Positions 1,290 through 6,573 of a stretch of DNA of 6,713 nt are shown piece after piece. Source of the stretch: Myxococcota bacterium. Lineage in GTDB: Bacteria > Myxococcota > Polyangia > GCA-2747355 > JAKLHH01. Numbering within the stretch: the first letter of the stretch is position 1; every line of letters starts with the position of its first letter. The stretch lies in contig JAKLHH010000428.1 in assembly GCA_022710245.1 (NCBI GenBank), forward strand, positions 1 through 6,713, written 5' to 3'. Position numbers and translations under genes: made by a program. The notes beneath the pieces are model-generated. The model worked only from the letters and a program-made list of their open reading frames with translations, was not told where the DNA came from and made no database searches.

Positions 1290-2720
1290 CTACTCGAGCT
1301 CGTCCGTCACCTCGAGCGGCTTGACCTCGAGCCCGCCCTTGCCGCCCTGGCCGCCCTCGACGCGGAAGCTCGAGTGCTTGCCGTCGCAGTCGAGGTCCCC
1401 GCGCGCCTCGATGACGAAGCGCGCCGCGGCGCCCTTGCCGCTCGAGGTGAAGCGGTACTCGTAGCGGTGGCGCTGGCCGGGCTGAAAGCCGAGCGCGCGC
1501 CAGGTCGGCGCGTCGAAGTCGGCGGGGGCGGGCACGCACTGGCCTCCCTGCGCGCAGCAGCCCTTCGCGGGCGCCCAGTTGGTCGAGGCTGGGAAGCGGA
1601 AGGCCTTGCCGCGCGCGGGGTGCGCCTCGAGGTGCGCGCGCAGGCCGCGGACGAGCGCCTCGACGCCCTCGCGCGCCTCGACCGTGTTGCTCCGCCGCGT
1701 GTACTTGACGAAGGCCGGGATGGCGACGGCTGCCAGGACGCCGATGGCCGCCGCGGCGCCCAGCTTGCCCTCGAGCCGGGGCAGCCGGTACTCGCTGACG
1801 AGGAGGTCGCCGCTGACCCGCGGCTCGAGCTCGGCGAAGACCCGCTGCAGCTCGTGGTGGGCGATCAGCGCGGGCACCACCTTCTCGGCTCTGCCGTCGG
1901 CGAGCGCGGTCTTCTTCTCCTGCTCCGTCTGCGCCAGCCCCGCGACCAGCGCCTGCGCCATGATCTGCCGGATGGCCTGGAGCTTGTCGCCGCGGCCAGC
2001 GATGCGCACCAGCACGCGGTCGCCCTCCAGCGCGAAGGCGCCCGCGCGGAGCGAGAACTGCTCGACCATCCGCAGCAGCCCGGGGTCGCGCAGGGCGGCG
2101 AGCTCGAGCGCGACGAGCAGGTCGGCCTTCGCCGGATCGGAGGCCGCGAAGCAGGGCGCGTCGGGCGCCAGCGCGGGCGCGGCGCCCTGCGCGCGGTCGA
2201 TCCCGGCGCGGACGGCGCCGGGCGTGCCGAGGAGGAGCCCGGCCGGCACCCGCGCGACGACCAGCTTGCCCTCGAGCGCCGTGAGCGCCACGCCGCGGTG
2301 CGAGCCCGCGCTGGGGAGCGCGAGGTTGCCAGGCGTGGCGAGGAGGACCAGGACCGCCGCCTCGGGCGGCTCACCGAGGCCGATCGCGTAGCCGACCGCA
2401 CCGCGGACCTGGGTCAGGTCGAGGCCGAGGCGCTGCACCAGGTAACGCGCGAGCTCGCTCCTCAGCTCGGGGCGTGCGCGCAGGTACTCGAGCGGCCACG
2501 AGAGCATCCCGGGTCCGAGGTGGAAGACCGCTCGCGCGCTCGCGGGCACGTGGGCGAGGAAGGCCGCGCGGGCCGGGGCCGGCGGCGCGGCCGGCGCCAC
2601 CGGCGGCGGCGCGGCGGGCCGCGCGGGCGGCGGCGCGTGAGCGCAGCCGGCGAGGGTCAGCGCGAGGAGAGCGGCGTTCGTTGCGGAGCGGAGAGCGGCG
2701 TACGTTGCGGAGCGGAGCAT
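1290..2720 (-). CDS. Predicted lipoprotein with C-terminal type IV pilin-like domain
   Basis: The 476-residue product begins with a signal sequence and a lipobox (LTLAGC, Cys26), then a Pro/Ala-rich linker (about 27-50). Residues about 50-312 form an alpha/beta-looking domain of unknown role. Its opening (FLAHVPASARAVFHLGPG) loosely recalls DUF3352-type proteins, which is only a guess. Residues 319-350 then match the conserved pilin helix (IGVLAAVAIPAF, VKYTRRSNTVEAR). The region after it resembles myxococcal pilin-like heads: CCAQGGQC at 388-395, DAPTWRALGF at 403-412, RYEYRF at 419-424 and a GDLDCDG motif at 441-447. The prepilin peptidase site (G before F/M-T-L-x-E) is absent, so this is not an ordinary pilin. 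Lipidation at Cys26 and an internal membrane helix are inferred. The ATG at 2718-2720 follows a weak purine stretch (GAGG). The signal-peptide region contains a 24-bp tandem repeat. The gene is convergent with the small exported protein. Confidence 0.8.
   Translation of the reverse strand: MLRSATYAALRSATNAALLALTLAGCAHAPPPARPAAPPPVAPAAPPAPARAAFLAHVPASARAVFHLGPGMLSWPLEYLRARPELRSELARYLVQRLGLDLTQVRGAVGYAIGLGEPPEAAVLVLLATPGNLALPSAGSHRGVALTALEGKLVVARVPAGLLLGTPGAVRAGIDRAQGAAPALAPDAPCFAASDPAKADLLVALELAALRDPGLLRMVEQFSLRAGAFALEGDRVLVRIAGRGDKLQAIRQIMAQALVAGLAQTEQEKKTALADGRAEKVVPALIAHHELQRVFAELEPRVSGDLLVSEYRLPRLEGKLGAAAAIGVLAAVAIPAFVKYTRRSNTVEAREGVEALVRGLRAHLEAHPARGKAFRFPASTNWAPAKGCCAQGGQCVPAPADFDAPTWRALGFQPGQRHRYEYRFTSSGKGAAARFVIEARGDLDCDGKHSSFRVEGGQGGKGGLEVKPLEVTDELE
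2667..2714. repeat. 24-bp tandem duplication inside a signal peptide
   Basis: Two 24-bp copies, 2667-2690 and 2691-2714, differ at one base (T or A at copy position 12). They lie in the 5' end of the lipoprotein-pilin gene and encode the eight-residue repeat LRSATYAA / LRSATNAA just after the start Met. The unit is a multiple of three, so the duplication keeps the frame and only lengthens the N-terminal region before the hydrophobic core. Confidence 0.9.
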
Positions 2721-3084: not shown

Positions 3085-4368
3085 TTAGTGCCCGTTGTAA
3101 GCCGCCAGATCGAGGAGCCCGTGCCCCGAGAGGTTGAAGAGGATGGTCCGCTCCCGCCCCTCGGCGTCAGCGGCCCGCGCCAGCTCCATCGCCGCGGCGA
3201 TGGCGTGCGCCGACTCGGGCGCCGGGATCAGCCCCTCGGCCCCGGCGAAGGTCCGCGCCGCCGCGAAGGTCTCCTCCTGCGGGTAGGCGCGCGCCTCCAC
3301 CAGCCCCCGCGAGACGAGCTCGCTCACCTGGGGCGCCGCGCCGTGGTAGCGGAGCCCGCCGGCGTGGATCGGGTCGGGGACGAAGTCCGCCCCGAGCGTG
3401 TACATCTTCACCAGCGGGGTCAGGTGCGCGGTGTCGCCGTAGTCGTACTCGAAGCGGCCGCGCGTCAGCGTCGGGCAGCTCGCGGGCTCGGCCGCGACGA
3501 TCTGCAGCGCGCGCCCGTCGAGCTTGTGGCGGACGAAGGGGAAGGCGAGGCCGCCGAAGTTCGAGCCGCCGCCGTGGCAGGCGACCACCGCGTCGGGGAA
3601 GAGGCCCAGCTCGTCGAGCTGCCTGAGCGCCTCCTGGCCGATCACCGTCTGGTGCAGCAGCACGTGGTTGAGCACCGAGCCGAGCGCGTACTTGGTCCCC
3701 GGGTGGCTGACCGCGTGCTCGACCGCCTCGGAGATCGCCACCCCGAGCGAGCCCGGGTGGTCCGGCTGCTCGGCGCGCACCCGGCGGCCGAACTCGGTCT
3801 TCGTCGAGGGCGAGGCACAGACCTCGGCGCCGAAGATCTCCATCATCGTGCGCCGGGTCGGCTTCTGCTCGAAGGAGATGCGCACCATGTAGATGGTGCA
3901 GGCGATCTCGAAGCGCCGGCAGGCGTAGGCGAGCGCCGTGCCCCACTGGCCGGCCCCGGTCTCGGTGGCGAGCCGGCGAACGCCCTCCAGGCTGTTGTAG
4001 TAGGCCTGCGGGAGCGCCGTGTTGAGCTTGTGCGAGCCGACCGGCGAGGCGCCCTCGTACTTGTAGAGGATGCGCGAGCGGGTGCCGAGGGCGCGCTCGA
4101 AGGAGAGCGCGCGGCGCAGCGGCGTCGGGCGGAACGCCGCGTAGGCCTCGAGGAGCGGCTCCGGGATGGGGATGTGGGCCTCGCTGCTCATCTCCTGCTC
4201 GAGGAGGCCGCGCGCGAAGAGCGTGGCCAGCTTCTCGGGCGCGATCGGCGCCCGGGTCTCCGGGTCGAGGGGCGGCGCGCCGACGATCCCGGCGTCCGCG
4301 AAGAGGTTGTAGAAGCTGGTCGGGATGCCCGAGGGGGTGAAGCTGGGGGTGATGATCGTGGAGCGCAT
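3085..4368 (-). CDS. trpB: TrpB2-type tryptophan synthase beta-like PLP enzyme
   Basis: The 427-residue product matches the TrpB2 (TrpB-like) class along its whole length, within the usual size. Seen in order: FRPTPLRRA (79-87), YKYEGASPVGSHKLNTA (102-118) with the PLP Schiff-base Lys114, ETGAGQWG (136-143) with the likely catalytic Glu136, EQKPTRRTMME (167-177), a long KYALGSVLNHVLLHQTVIG block (226-244), the PLP-phosphate loop GGGSN (266-270), IHAGGLRYHG (334-343), and NLSGHGLLDLAAY near the end. TrpB condenses indole with serine to give tryptophan. TrpB2 enzymes often lack a partner alpha subunit and may act as stand-alone indole salvage or serine-deaminating enzymes; no trpA is visible here. 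The ATG at 4368 is chosen because GGAG lies about 7 nt upstream; a GTG at 4398 would add ten unconserved residues. A structured leader precedes it. Confidence 0.93.
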   Translation of the reverse strand: MRSTIITPSFTPSGIPTSFYNLFADAGIVGAPPLDPETRAPIAPEKLATLFARGLLEQEMSSEAHIPIPEPLLEAYAAFRPTPLRRALSFERALGTRSRILYKYEGASPVGSHKLNTALPQAYYNSLEGVRRLATETGAGQWGTALAYACRRFEIACTIYMVRISFEQKPTRRTMMEIFGAEVCASPSTKTEFGRRVRAEQPDHPGSLGVAISEAVEHAVSHPGTKYALGSVLNHVLLHQTVIGQEALRQLDELGLFPDAVVACHGGGSNFGGLAFPFVRHKLDGRALQIVAAEPASCPTLTRGRFEYDYGDTAHLTPLVKMYTLGADFVPDPIHAGGLRYHGAAPQVSELVSRGLVEARAYPQEETFAAARTFAGAEGLIPAPESAHAIAAAMELARAADAEGRERTILFNLSGHGLLDLAAYNGH

Positions 4369-4471
4369 CTGGCTCTCCTTCTCTCGCCGACGGGTCACAG
4401 GTTGAGGGCGCCGCTTGGCGCTGCAGGGGACGCGCGACTCCGCCGGGGCGCGCGGCTCCCCGCTCGCTCAT

Positions 4472-4715: not shown

Positions 4716-5584
4716 TCACGGCGGTGCGGCGGTGGTCACGGCCGCCCCCCAGAAGGCCTCGCTGCCCGTGCTCAGCCCCGTGCCCTTGCCGGTCTTGGGA
4801 TCGATGGCGAGGATCTGGTTGTCGCCCGTGAAGCCGTAGAACGTGCCCCGCAGGTAGGCGAGGCCCAGACCTTGGAGAAGCCGGTCTCGCCGATCTTCGT
4901 CGCCGCGCCGGTGTCGGTGTTGATCCTCGCCAGCGCGTCGCTGGCGCCCGTCACGGTGGCGAAGGTGCCCACCCCCTTGATGGAGACCAGGTCGCCGCTG
5001 AAGAGCACGCCCTTGTTGCTGATCAGCTGCAAGATGCCCGCGGTCCGGTCCACCTTGTAGAAGTCGCCCGCGTTGGTCGCTGCCAGCAGGAGCTCGACGG
5101 TGGGGTCGCTGTCCGCGAAGGCGAAGGAGAGAGAGTTGAACGAGCTGTCGGGGAGCGGACCGAGCATCTGGCAGGCGGCGGTCTGCGGATCGATGGTGTG
5201 GATCGCGGTCTGCGAGATCCCCATCATCTTGCCCTGCTGGTCGACGGCGATGTCGGTCATCTGGTTGGTGCACGAGAAGGTGCCGATGAGGACCGTCGAG
5301 GACGTCGCCAGCTCGAGGCGGTGCAGGGCGCTGGAGGTGCTCGCGTAGATCGGCGGGTCGGGCGCGAGCACGTCGCCGCTCCGGTCGGTCAACCCACGGT
5401 CGCTCAGCCCGCCGTCATCGCGGACCGTGTCGCGGTCCCGGTCCCGGGGCGGGCCGTCGCGGTCGAGCGCGGTGTCCCGGCGGACGGCGTCGCCCACCCT
5501 GGCGCTCCCGGGACGGAAGAGGAGCAGGCGATCGCATCCGCCGGCGAGGAGGAGCGCGCAGAGGCCGCTCGCGACCACCTGCAT
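4716..5584 (-). CDS. Repeat-bearing predicted lipoprotein, frameshifted near the C-terminus
   Basis: This is a paralogue of the gene just upstream. The ATG at 5584 gives MQVVASGLCALLLAGGC, a signal peptide with lipobox-like LLAGGC (Cys17). Residues 36-71 form an Asp/Arg-rich linker, and from about 79 a body holds five copies of a short repeat (for example AIHTIDPQTA, ALARINTDTG, QILAIDPKTG) typical of small beta-propeller-like surface proteins. After Trp240 the frame breaks: a run of three Gs (4864-4866 on the plus strand reads CCC) should be four. In the next frame the sequence continues LAYLRGTFYGFT and ends GAAVTTAAPP at a TGA (4716-4718), matching the paralogue residue for residue in length. 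Repaired, the protein would have 289 residues; as written it stops at 4772 after 270. Sequencing error and true mutation are both possible. It starts 5 bp after the upstream stop with a poor ribosome binding site, suggesting translational coupling. Ligand and role are unknown. Confidence 0.75.
5372..5479 (-). repeat. Asp/Arg-rich low-complexity linker
   Basis: Residues 36-71 of the second lipoprotein are dominated by alternating Asp and Arg (RDTALDRDG, RDRDRDTVRDD, SDRGLTDRSGD), encoded by GAC/CGG-type near-repeats. Such linkers often space an outer-membrane lipoprotein body from its lipid anchor. The upstream paralogue has a much shorter version (residues about 17-50), so the linker is the part that has diverged most between the copies. 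Confidence 0.7.
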
Positions 5585-5589
5585 CGGGC

Positions 5590-6426
5590 TCAGTCGATCA
5601 CCGGCGCCGCGGTGGTCACCCCCGCGCCCCACCAGGCCTCGCCGCCCTTGCTGACCAGCGTGCCCTTGCCGGTCTTCACGTCGACGGTGACGAACTCCTT
5701 GCTGTCGGTGAACCCGTAGAACTTGTTCTTCCAGAAGCCGAGCCCCCAGATGCTGGAGAAGCCGGTGTCCCCGATCAGCGTCGCCTTGCCGGTCAGGGTG
5801 TCGATCCTCGCCAGCCAGTCGGTGCCGGCGAAGCTCTTGGTGACGGTGGCGAAGGTGCCGAGCCCCTTGACCGAGACGAGGTCGCCGCTCGAGCCCGGGC
5901 CGCCGTAGTTGCCGAGCGCCTTCGACTGACCGGTCGCCGGGTTGATCTCGTAGACCCCGCCGCTGATCCCGGCGGCGACGAGGATCTCGGTGGTGTCGCC
6001 GATCTCCGAGGCAATGAAGGAGAGCCCGTTGAAGTCCGCGCCCCCCGAGAGCGGGGCGAGCTTGGCGCAGACCGCGGTCTTCGGGTCCACCGAGTAGACG
6101 GTGTCGTAGGAGATGCCGACCATCTTGCCCTTCTTGTCGAGGGCGATGTCAGTCATCTGGTCGGAGAGGCCCGGCCACTTGAAGGGACCGATCAGCTCCA
6201 CTGTCAGGGCGGTCGGGTCGACCTTGAAGAGCTCGTTCGCCGTGTGCGCGTAGACCGCCGGCTCCCCGGTATAGATGAAGCCCTCGCCCTGCGCGGCGGC
6301 CTCCCAGGGGCGGCCGCGATCGTGGACGGCGCCGTCCTGGCGAGGGCTCGAGGTGTCGGTGAAGGTCGACTCGCCGGCGCAGCCCGCGACCAGCACGGCA
6401 AGGACCCAGGTGAGCGCGGCTCGCAT
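5590..6426 (-). CDS. Predicted lipoprotein with five propeller-like repeats
   Basis: The 278-residue product starts MRAALTWVLAVLVAGC, a clean lipoprotein signal with lipobox LVAGC (Cys16). After a short polar linker (17-50) come five spaced repeats of the form hydrophobic-x-x-(V/I)D-x-x-T-(A/G): ELFKVDPTALT (65-75), TVYSVDPKTAV (109-119), GVYEINPATGQ (157-167), WLARIDTLTGK (204-214) and EFVTVDVKTGK (244-254). Conserved inter-repeat blocks include QMTDIALDKKGKMVGIS and SGDLVSVKGLGTFATVT. This suggests a small beta-propeller exposed at the cell surface or in the periplasm; the number of blades is inference. The ATG at 6426 is chosen because a strong AGGAGG lies about 6 nt upstream; an upstream GTG-type start at 6486 would spoil the signal peptide. 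It is the first gene of a two-gene unit with its paralogue 5 bp downstream, and is divergent from the DnaE-like gene. I recognise no named family. Confidence 0.8.
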   Translation of the reverse strand: MRAALTWVLAVLVAGCAGESTFTDTSSPRQDGAVHDRGRPWEAAAQGEGFIYTGEPAVYAHTANELFKVDPTALTVELIGPFKWPGLSDQMTDIALDKKGKMVGISYDTVYSVDPKTAVCAKLAPLSGGADFNGLSFIASEIGDTTEILVAAGISGGVYEINPATGQSKALGNYGGPGSSGDLVSVKGLGTFATVTKSFAGTDWLARIDTLTGKATLIGDTGFSSIWGLGFWKNKFYGFTDSKEFVTVDVKTGKGTLVSKGGEAWWGAGVTTAAPVID

Positions 6427-6573
6427 CTCGGCCTCCTCAGGTGATGCTCTTCGCTCCAGTGTCGCGCTTCGGCGGGGTGCGCTCAACCCCGGCGATCAGC
6501 GAGGATGGCCGGAGCGGCGAAGGCGGCGCTCTGCTACGATCGCAGGCGCGGCGCGGCCGCCGGCGGTGCGAGC
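6427..6573. promoter_or_regulatory. Divergent intergenic region between lipoprotein and DnaE-like genes
   Basis: The 147 bp between two divergently transcribed genes must hold a promoter for each. The only recognisable element is TACGAT (6535-6540) on the plus strand, a plausible -10 box 34 nt before the GTG of the DnaE-like gene; no good -35 lies 17 bp upstream of it. For the lipoprotein unit no convincing boxes were found apart from the strong ribosome binding site beside its ATG. Confidence 0.35.

Follow-up and report, generated by a model that had tools for sequence, protein, structure and literature searches.

Type IV pilins are expected to begin with a leader that is cleaved off and a helix that anchors them, any extra domains being grafted on, and in the filament they bury the start of this helix in the core. 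Several variations on this plan have been described. In modular pilins, such as PilB and PilC of S. sanguinis (PMC10191384) and CpaL of Caulobacter (PMC12607857), a pilin module is combined with another domain; the graft is described as following the pilin module and sitting on a processed pilin. In the Geobacter split pilin (PMC10191384), stick and head are two proteins. For Myxococcus xanthus PilA, it is reported (PMC11046646) that the helix near Pro22 loses its helical structure upon assembly, and that Arg30, Lys37 and Glu53 bridge the helices of neighbouring subunits.

The stretch of 6,713 nucleotides of Myxococcota DNA analysed here (hereafter the window) encodes a protein that departs from the usual expectation of a pilin, as the domain order is inverted and the processing site is gone. 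Unlike M. xanthus PilA and the other major pilins of type IVa pili, it lacks the leader, the cleavage site, Phe1 and Glu5, and a lipoprotein domain precedes the pilin part. It shares with the modular pilins the joining of a pilin module to another domain, but here the pilin module comes last. As in the Geobacter case, the head is produced separately from the portion of the helix that serves as anchor; the fusion differs in keeping roughly the later two thirds of the helix, and in having its head fused to a lipoprotein. The N-terminal domain (N-domain) resembles TP0453 of Treponema pallidum, also a lipoprotein, in its fold; TP0453 has no pilin part. I found no report of a pilin domain at the C-terminus of a lipoprotein, or of this inverted order, in searches of the open-access literature. 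The anatomy of the fusion is firm, while its function is proposed only.

Anatomy of the window protein

The fusion gene is an open reading frame with an ATG start, encoding 476 residues (Table 1). A preliminary description of the window had taken the product for a lipoprotein with a pilin-like helix at residues 319–350, followed by the motifs CCAQGGQC (residues 388–395) and GDLDCDG. All of these are present as described, and the signal peptide with its lipobox cysteine is that of a bacterial lipoprotein. The start of the signal peptide also contains a near-tandem repeat, LRSATYAA / LRSATNAA. Even at E 10, Pfam offers no family for the protein as a whole.

Table 1. Features of the lipoprotein-pilin fusion gene, in window positions
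Feature	Positions	Strand	Evidence
Lipoprotein-pilin fusion gene, 476 aa + stop	1290..2720	-	ORF; nine relatives covering 79–96% of the protein
Signal peptide and lipobox LAGC (23–26), Cys26	2643..2720	-	Pattern and hydrophobic stretch
Ala/Pro-rich linker, residues 27–52	2565..2642	-	Sequence; pLDDT mostly <50 up to residue 49
N-domain, residues 53–316, TP0453-like fold	1773..2564	-	
Pilin helix alpha1, hydrophobic part (shortened), residues 320–338, IGVLAAVAIPAF	1707..1763	-	Position-by-position prepilin comparison; KD19 2.32
Amphipathic part of alpha1 (alpha1-C), residues 339–366	1623..1706	-	Model helix 319–366; PilA alignments
Pilin head, residues 367–476	1293..1622	-	Beta strands, fold match to PilA 8tj2, cysteine positions
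GDLDCDG motif, residues 441–447	1380..1400	-	Columns G441–C445 invariant in 10/10 aligned fusions

The proposed pilin homology of the C-terminal part holds in sequence and in predicted structure. The NCBIfam model PilA_Myxo matches residues 323–358 (E 4.5e-6, 26.8 bits, far under the cut-off of 400 set for the whole protein), a profile built from 10 fusion proteins retrieves M. xanthus PilA from the PDB with an E of 3.4e-9, and standalone prepilins match the C-terminal profile of the fusions across helix and head, many of them near E 1e-45. In the model, a long alpha1 packs on an antiparallel beta-sheet head (strands 421–427, 434–441, 450–458 and 464–466), the alpha-beta fold of a pilin; the full-length model is unsure at residues 311–340 (pLDDT blocks 60, 51 and 52). 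The head possesses four cysteines (388, 389, 395 and 445) that may pair; disulphides are common although not universal in pilin heads.

The cleavage motif is indeed lost, as the same description had stated. The prepilin-leader model TIGR02532 (cut-off 16.3) does not match the window protein even when E is allowed to reach 10, while it matches the standalone relatives L010 (30.0 bits) and L014 (32.8 bits). There is no leader with a G-F-T-L-x-E site, cut after the Gly; pilin positions 1 and 5 are occupied by Pro314 and Gly318, the latter in place of Glu5, and Pro335 corresponds to the pilin Pro22.

The N-domain matches the TP0453 fold over nearly its whole length, with a loose superposition (4.6–5.0 Å, TM-score 0.42–0.48, 8–12% identity), and TP0453 is absent from the 17 PDB sequences found by the fusion profile at E up to 1. 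Its two long helices were considered as candidate amphipathic helices, but their hydrophobic moments over the whole length are low and unremarkable (0.12 and 0.21; the scales used in these and the other hydrophobicity measurements were those of Kyte-Doolittle, membrane insertion and Eisenberg).

Relatives and their genomic settings

Nine relatives of the window protein show the same layout, at 28–40% identity in the alignment (one of them, P0005, without its N-terminus); three of these closest relatives are named PilA or PulG in their source annotation. The layout also recurs at loci in independent assemblies, as the preliminary description had proposed to look for in Myxococcota. A frameshift or misassembly joining two genes, which it had considered, is very unlikely as the origin of the fusion, judging from these nine sequences and independent assemblies. 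In the ten-member set A1, among the nine proteins that have their N-terminus, four carry a strict and seven a loose lipobox pattern, while P0006 and P0009 show a candidate ordinary cleavage site only. Pfam gave nothing consistent across the ten members of A1.

A genome scan with the single window sequence returned no matches, whereas one with the alignment identified 77 loci with a relative, prepilins included, mostly in Myxococcota or 'Deltaproteobacteria' assemblies. Within the phylum, the pilin part is found in at least 133 of 188 genomes (prepilins included) and the N-domain in at least 11 of 377, both lower bounds as 19 and 6 candidates per genome, respectively, were scored. Of the C-domains with a domain E of 1e-15 or lower, 149 are distinct, 95 with the prepilin motif and 54 without. 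I read seven of the latter as fragments, masked or variant prepilins (L012, L072, L074, L106, L137, L144, L169), which leaves 47 genuine non-prepilins. Four others appear to start in the cytoplasm (L003, L022, L049, L104), and in five (L071, L094, L105, L107, L167) the head is present without the pilin-type hydrophobic part of the helix; by eye, L094 and L107 are lipoprotein-like and L105 is multi-span-like. After these exclusions 38 N-domain fusions remain, with a hydrophobic N-terminal export signal identified by pattern in 30, and by eye or unconfirmed in eight (L006, L007, L052, L073, L109, L110, L161, L164).

A quick tree built from the pilin part requires the prepilin label to change 12 times, with four of the changes forced by strong branches; the count is over 149 columns with 51 of 118 inner branches open, and may include reversals. 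The tree holds 121 rows after removal of near-copies (62 prepilins, 55 fusions, 4 helix-less), and the sequences being related, the counts of fusions and prepilins are not independent. It seems that the lipoprotein-pilin arrangement originated on more than one occasion. The fusions fall into N-terminal groups unlinked by profile comparison, namely TP0453-like, ∼500-residue and (by eye) short lipoproteins; the best link of the N-domain to the ∼500-residue parts of longer fusions has an E of 9e-4 and a probability of 22%, in a comparison where several parts are single sequences and a remote link is possible.

The two halves also occur in other combinations. The fusion protein L116 (1156–2979, minus strand) combines a member of the N-domain family with a GspG-type pilin (T2SSG 28.2 bits, cut-off 21), and this type II secretion pilin domain seemingly lacks the usual helix start. 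L112, L115 and L119 are N-domain relatives with a hydrophobic tail and no pilin. L003 (5129–6364, plus strand) and L022 (7770–8408, plus strand) are multi-span proteins leading straight into a pilin helix and head; the first is a DUF4190-type membrane protein (28.6 bits, under the Pfam cut-off of 35), which the second resembles by eye only.

Neither in the window nor at L001 do the flanks examined put the fusion gene within a pil cluster. In the window, the gene next upstream on the same strand encodes a TrpB-like PLP enzyme (3085–4398, minus strand; NF009057, 655 bits, cut-off 366), and a YkuD-type L,D-transpeptidase domain protein lies at 193–930 on the plus strand (PF03734, 31.2 bits, cut-off 23.4). 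Two adjoining minus-strand genes, 4716–5632 and 5590–6486, are related by eye and give weak DUF4394 matches under the cut-off; the latter has a lipobox-like start, and the former appears frameshifted, as its C-terminal likeness to the latter goes on in a different frame, in ORF 4716–5273. L001 is flanked by nadA and by weak TIGR02266 matches; its flanks are common to L007 and partly to L006, and are unlike those in the window; the neighbourhood offers no lead.

A standalone prepilin that shares this head occurs in genome G008 (L030), where it adjoins pilT, PilC-like and histidine kinase genes, with a pilB over the cut-off on the same contig, which is the setting of a pilA gene. PilB is found over the cut-off in seven of nine fusion genomes and in none of 14 control genomes. 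Prepilin peptidase is present in all nine, but also in 12 of the 14 controls. In G005, a 3.6-Mb and perhaps incomplete assembly, no prepilin with this head turned up, its two matches both being non-prepilins.

Helix positions kept in the fusions

I compared 51 fusions (the 38 N-domain fusions and P0001–P0013) with 79 distinct prepilins, position by position. Prepilin positions 1–13 are not common to the fusions (Phe1 in 0 of 51, Glu5 in 3), a loss partly built in, as the classes were split by a motif including these two residues. In contrast, the later residues are kept: Gly14 in 42, Ala17 in 44, Ala20 in 50, Pro22 in 51, Phe24 in 47, Tyr27 in 48, Glu35 in 48 and Ala36 in 50. This conservation is also partly built in, as A-x-A-I-P served to place the P rows and AVAIP was part of one genome-scan pattern. 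The sharp boundary near position 14, as read from these sequences, is nonetheless not an artefact of the class definition. It follows that the cleavage part and most of the anchor are gone, while the packing part remains. The suggestion of a decayed pilin is not supported by this comparison, given that the later helix and the GDLDC motif are conserved across distant fusions.

Possible roles of the pilin-ended lipoproteins

The preliminary description listed a pilus-associated anchor among its options, and association with the pilus is still the best reading. My best explanation, held tentatively, is that an exported, pilin-ended lipoprotein docks on the type IV pilus, tethering or capping it at the membrane. 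The protein would be exported by Sec and held outside the cytoplasm by its N-terminal lipid, perhaps also by the TP0453-like domain, and its C-terminal end would consist of a type IVa pilin's distal helix and head. Neither processing nor polymerisation could follow the usual route, because pilin positions 1–13, with the cleavage site, Glu5 and most of the anchor, are gone; the protein would keep the inter-pilin packing segment (Gly14–Pro22 together with the charged alpha1-C) and a head with paired cysteines. Docking would be easiest at the lowest pilus subunit, where the N-terminal domain would not be in the way, since a helix start buried in the filament core means that a long N-terminal domain is best tolerated there. 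A membrane-held pilin domain without Glu5 could then sit beneath the pilus as a cap, brake or tether. The pilin sequence and fold, the TP0453-like N-domain, the helix kept from position 14 and the even cysteine numbers (see below) argue for this, as do the GspG-type fusion, the recurrent changes of status in the tree, the pilA-like setting in G008 and the distribution of PilB; prepilin peptidase adds weak support, being also present in most controls. The pilin-less tails of three N-domain relatives, the lack of such a prepilin in G005 and the unsure part of the model speak against it, as does the window helix, which is hydrophobic enough for a membrane span.

The chief rival, possible although less favoured, is that the pilin head was recruited as a disulphide-bonded, perhaps calcium-binding envelope module with no role in pili. 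GDLDCDG reads like D-x-D-x-D-G, which I take to be a candidate calcium-binding motif. The head is carried by several unlinked N-terminal groups, by the DUF4190-type protein L003 and by the short uncleaved membrane proteins L049 and L104; the five heads without a pilin-type hydrophobic helix part fit a merely recruited head, and the flanks examined show no link to a pil cluster, two observations that also count against docking. However, most fusions keep the helix from position 14 (the presence of this stretch being how the set was selected), and a mere head needs none; nor would it need the GspG-type pilin found on an N-domain of the same family.

It is unlikely that the helix is a true stop-transfer span, with the lipid outside and the head in the cytoplasm, the topology implied by the two anchors of the preliminary description. 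In the window helix, KYTRR comes after ∼19 uncharged residues, in keeping with the positive-inside rule, and the KD19 of 2.32 exceeds the usual limit of ∼1.6 above which a helix can span the membrane (the range in the 38 fusions is 1.16–2.32, and the median of the whole non-prepilin set 1.87). Fusion helices are however less hydrophobic than those of prepilins (2.38–3.18, median 2.96, n = 90), with one exception among 51, P0011 at 2.49; the window value is just under the lowest prepilin. Three of the non-prepilins read as starting in the cytoplasm have high values (L003 2.44, L049 2.52, L104 3.11), and L022, at 1.83, does not fit. Hydrophobicity thus leans toward an exported head, without settling the topology. 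As the N-domain is predicted to be exported, a single span after it would place the head and its cysteines in the cytoplasm, and the cysteine numbers speak against this: they are even (2, 4, 6 or 8) in all 51 fusions (38 + 13), as expected for pairs in an oxidising place. The same holds for 87 of 90 prepilins, whose heads lie outside (five of 95 could not be placed), and for 43 of the 44 non-prepilins measured among the 54, the odd one being L104. The head would therefore lie outside the cytoplasm, with the helix shielded by a partner or lying on the membrane. Of the two anchors originally proposed, the N-terminal lipid stands, while the internal helix is uncertain, with even cysteines set against its hydrophobicity.

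If the protein were a true minor pilin, cleaved at a site that escapes recognition and incorporated into the filament, this would account for the pilin fold and the conserved packing residues, yet such a reading is highly improbable in view of Pro314 and Gly318, the lack of a TIGR02532 match, the ∼290 residues ahead of the helix and the secretion signal already present. An artefact or decaying fusion is scarcely credible for the window gene, for which no support was found (L114 and L118 look decayed by eye), its relatives having invariant pilin motifs at 28–40% identity.

Going beyond the docking explanation, I can offer a broader proposal only as a doubtful one: Myxococcota may possess a class of pilin-headed lipoproteins that cannot be processed and that were put together on more than one occasion from the heads of their own pilins. 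Docking on type IV pili from the side of the envelope, these would link the pilus with the outer membrane and act as its cap, brake or anchor or as a sensor of its state, with the TP0453-like domain as the membrane-responsive half. If the fusions touch pili, they would be pilus accessories of a new type, and would amount to a natural experiment in truncation on the part of the helix sufficient for docking. If they do not, pilin heads would be an envelope module open to recruitment, to which source annotation can give the wrong name. The recurrence of the arrangement in Myxococcota suggests a class of envelope proteins, docking on pili or derived from them, that is so far undescribed.
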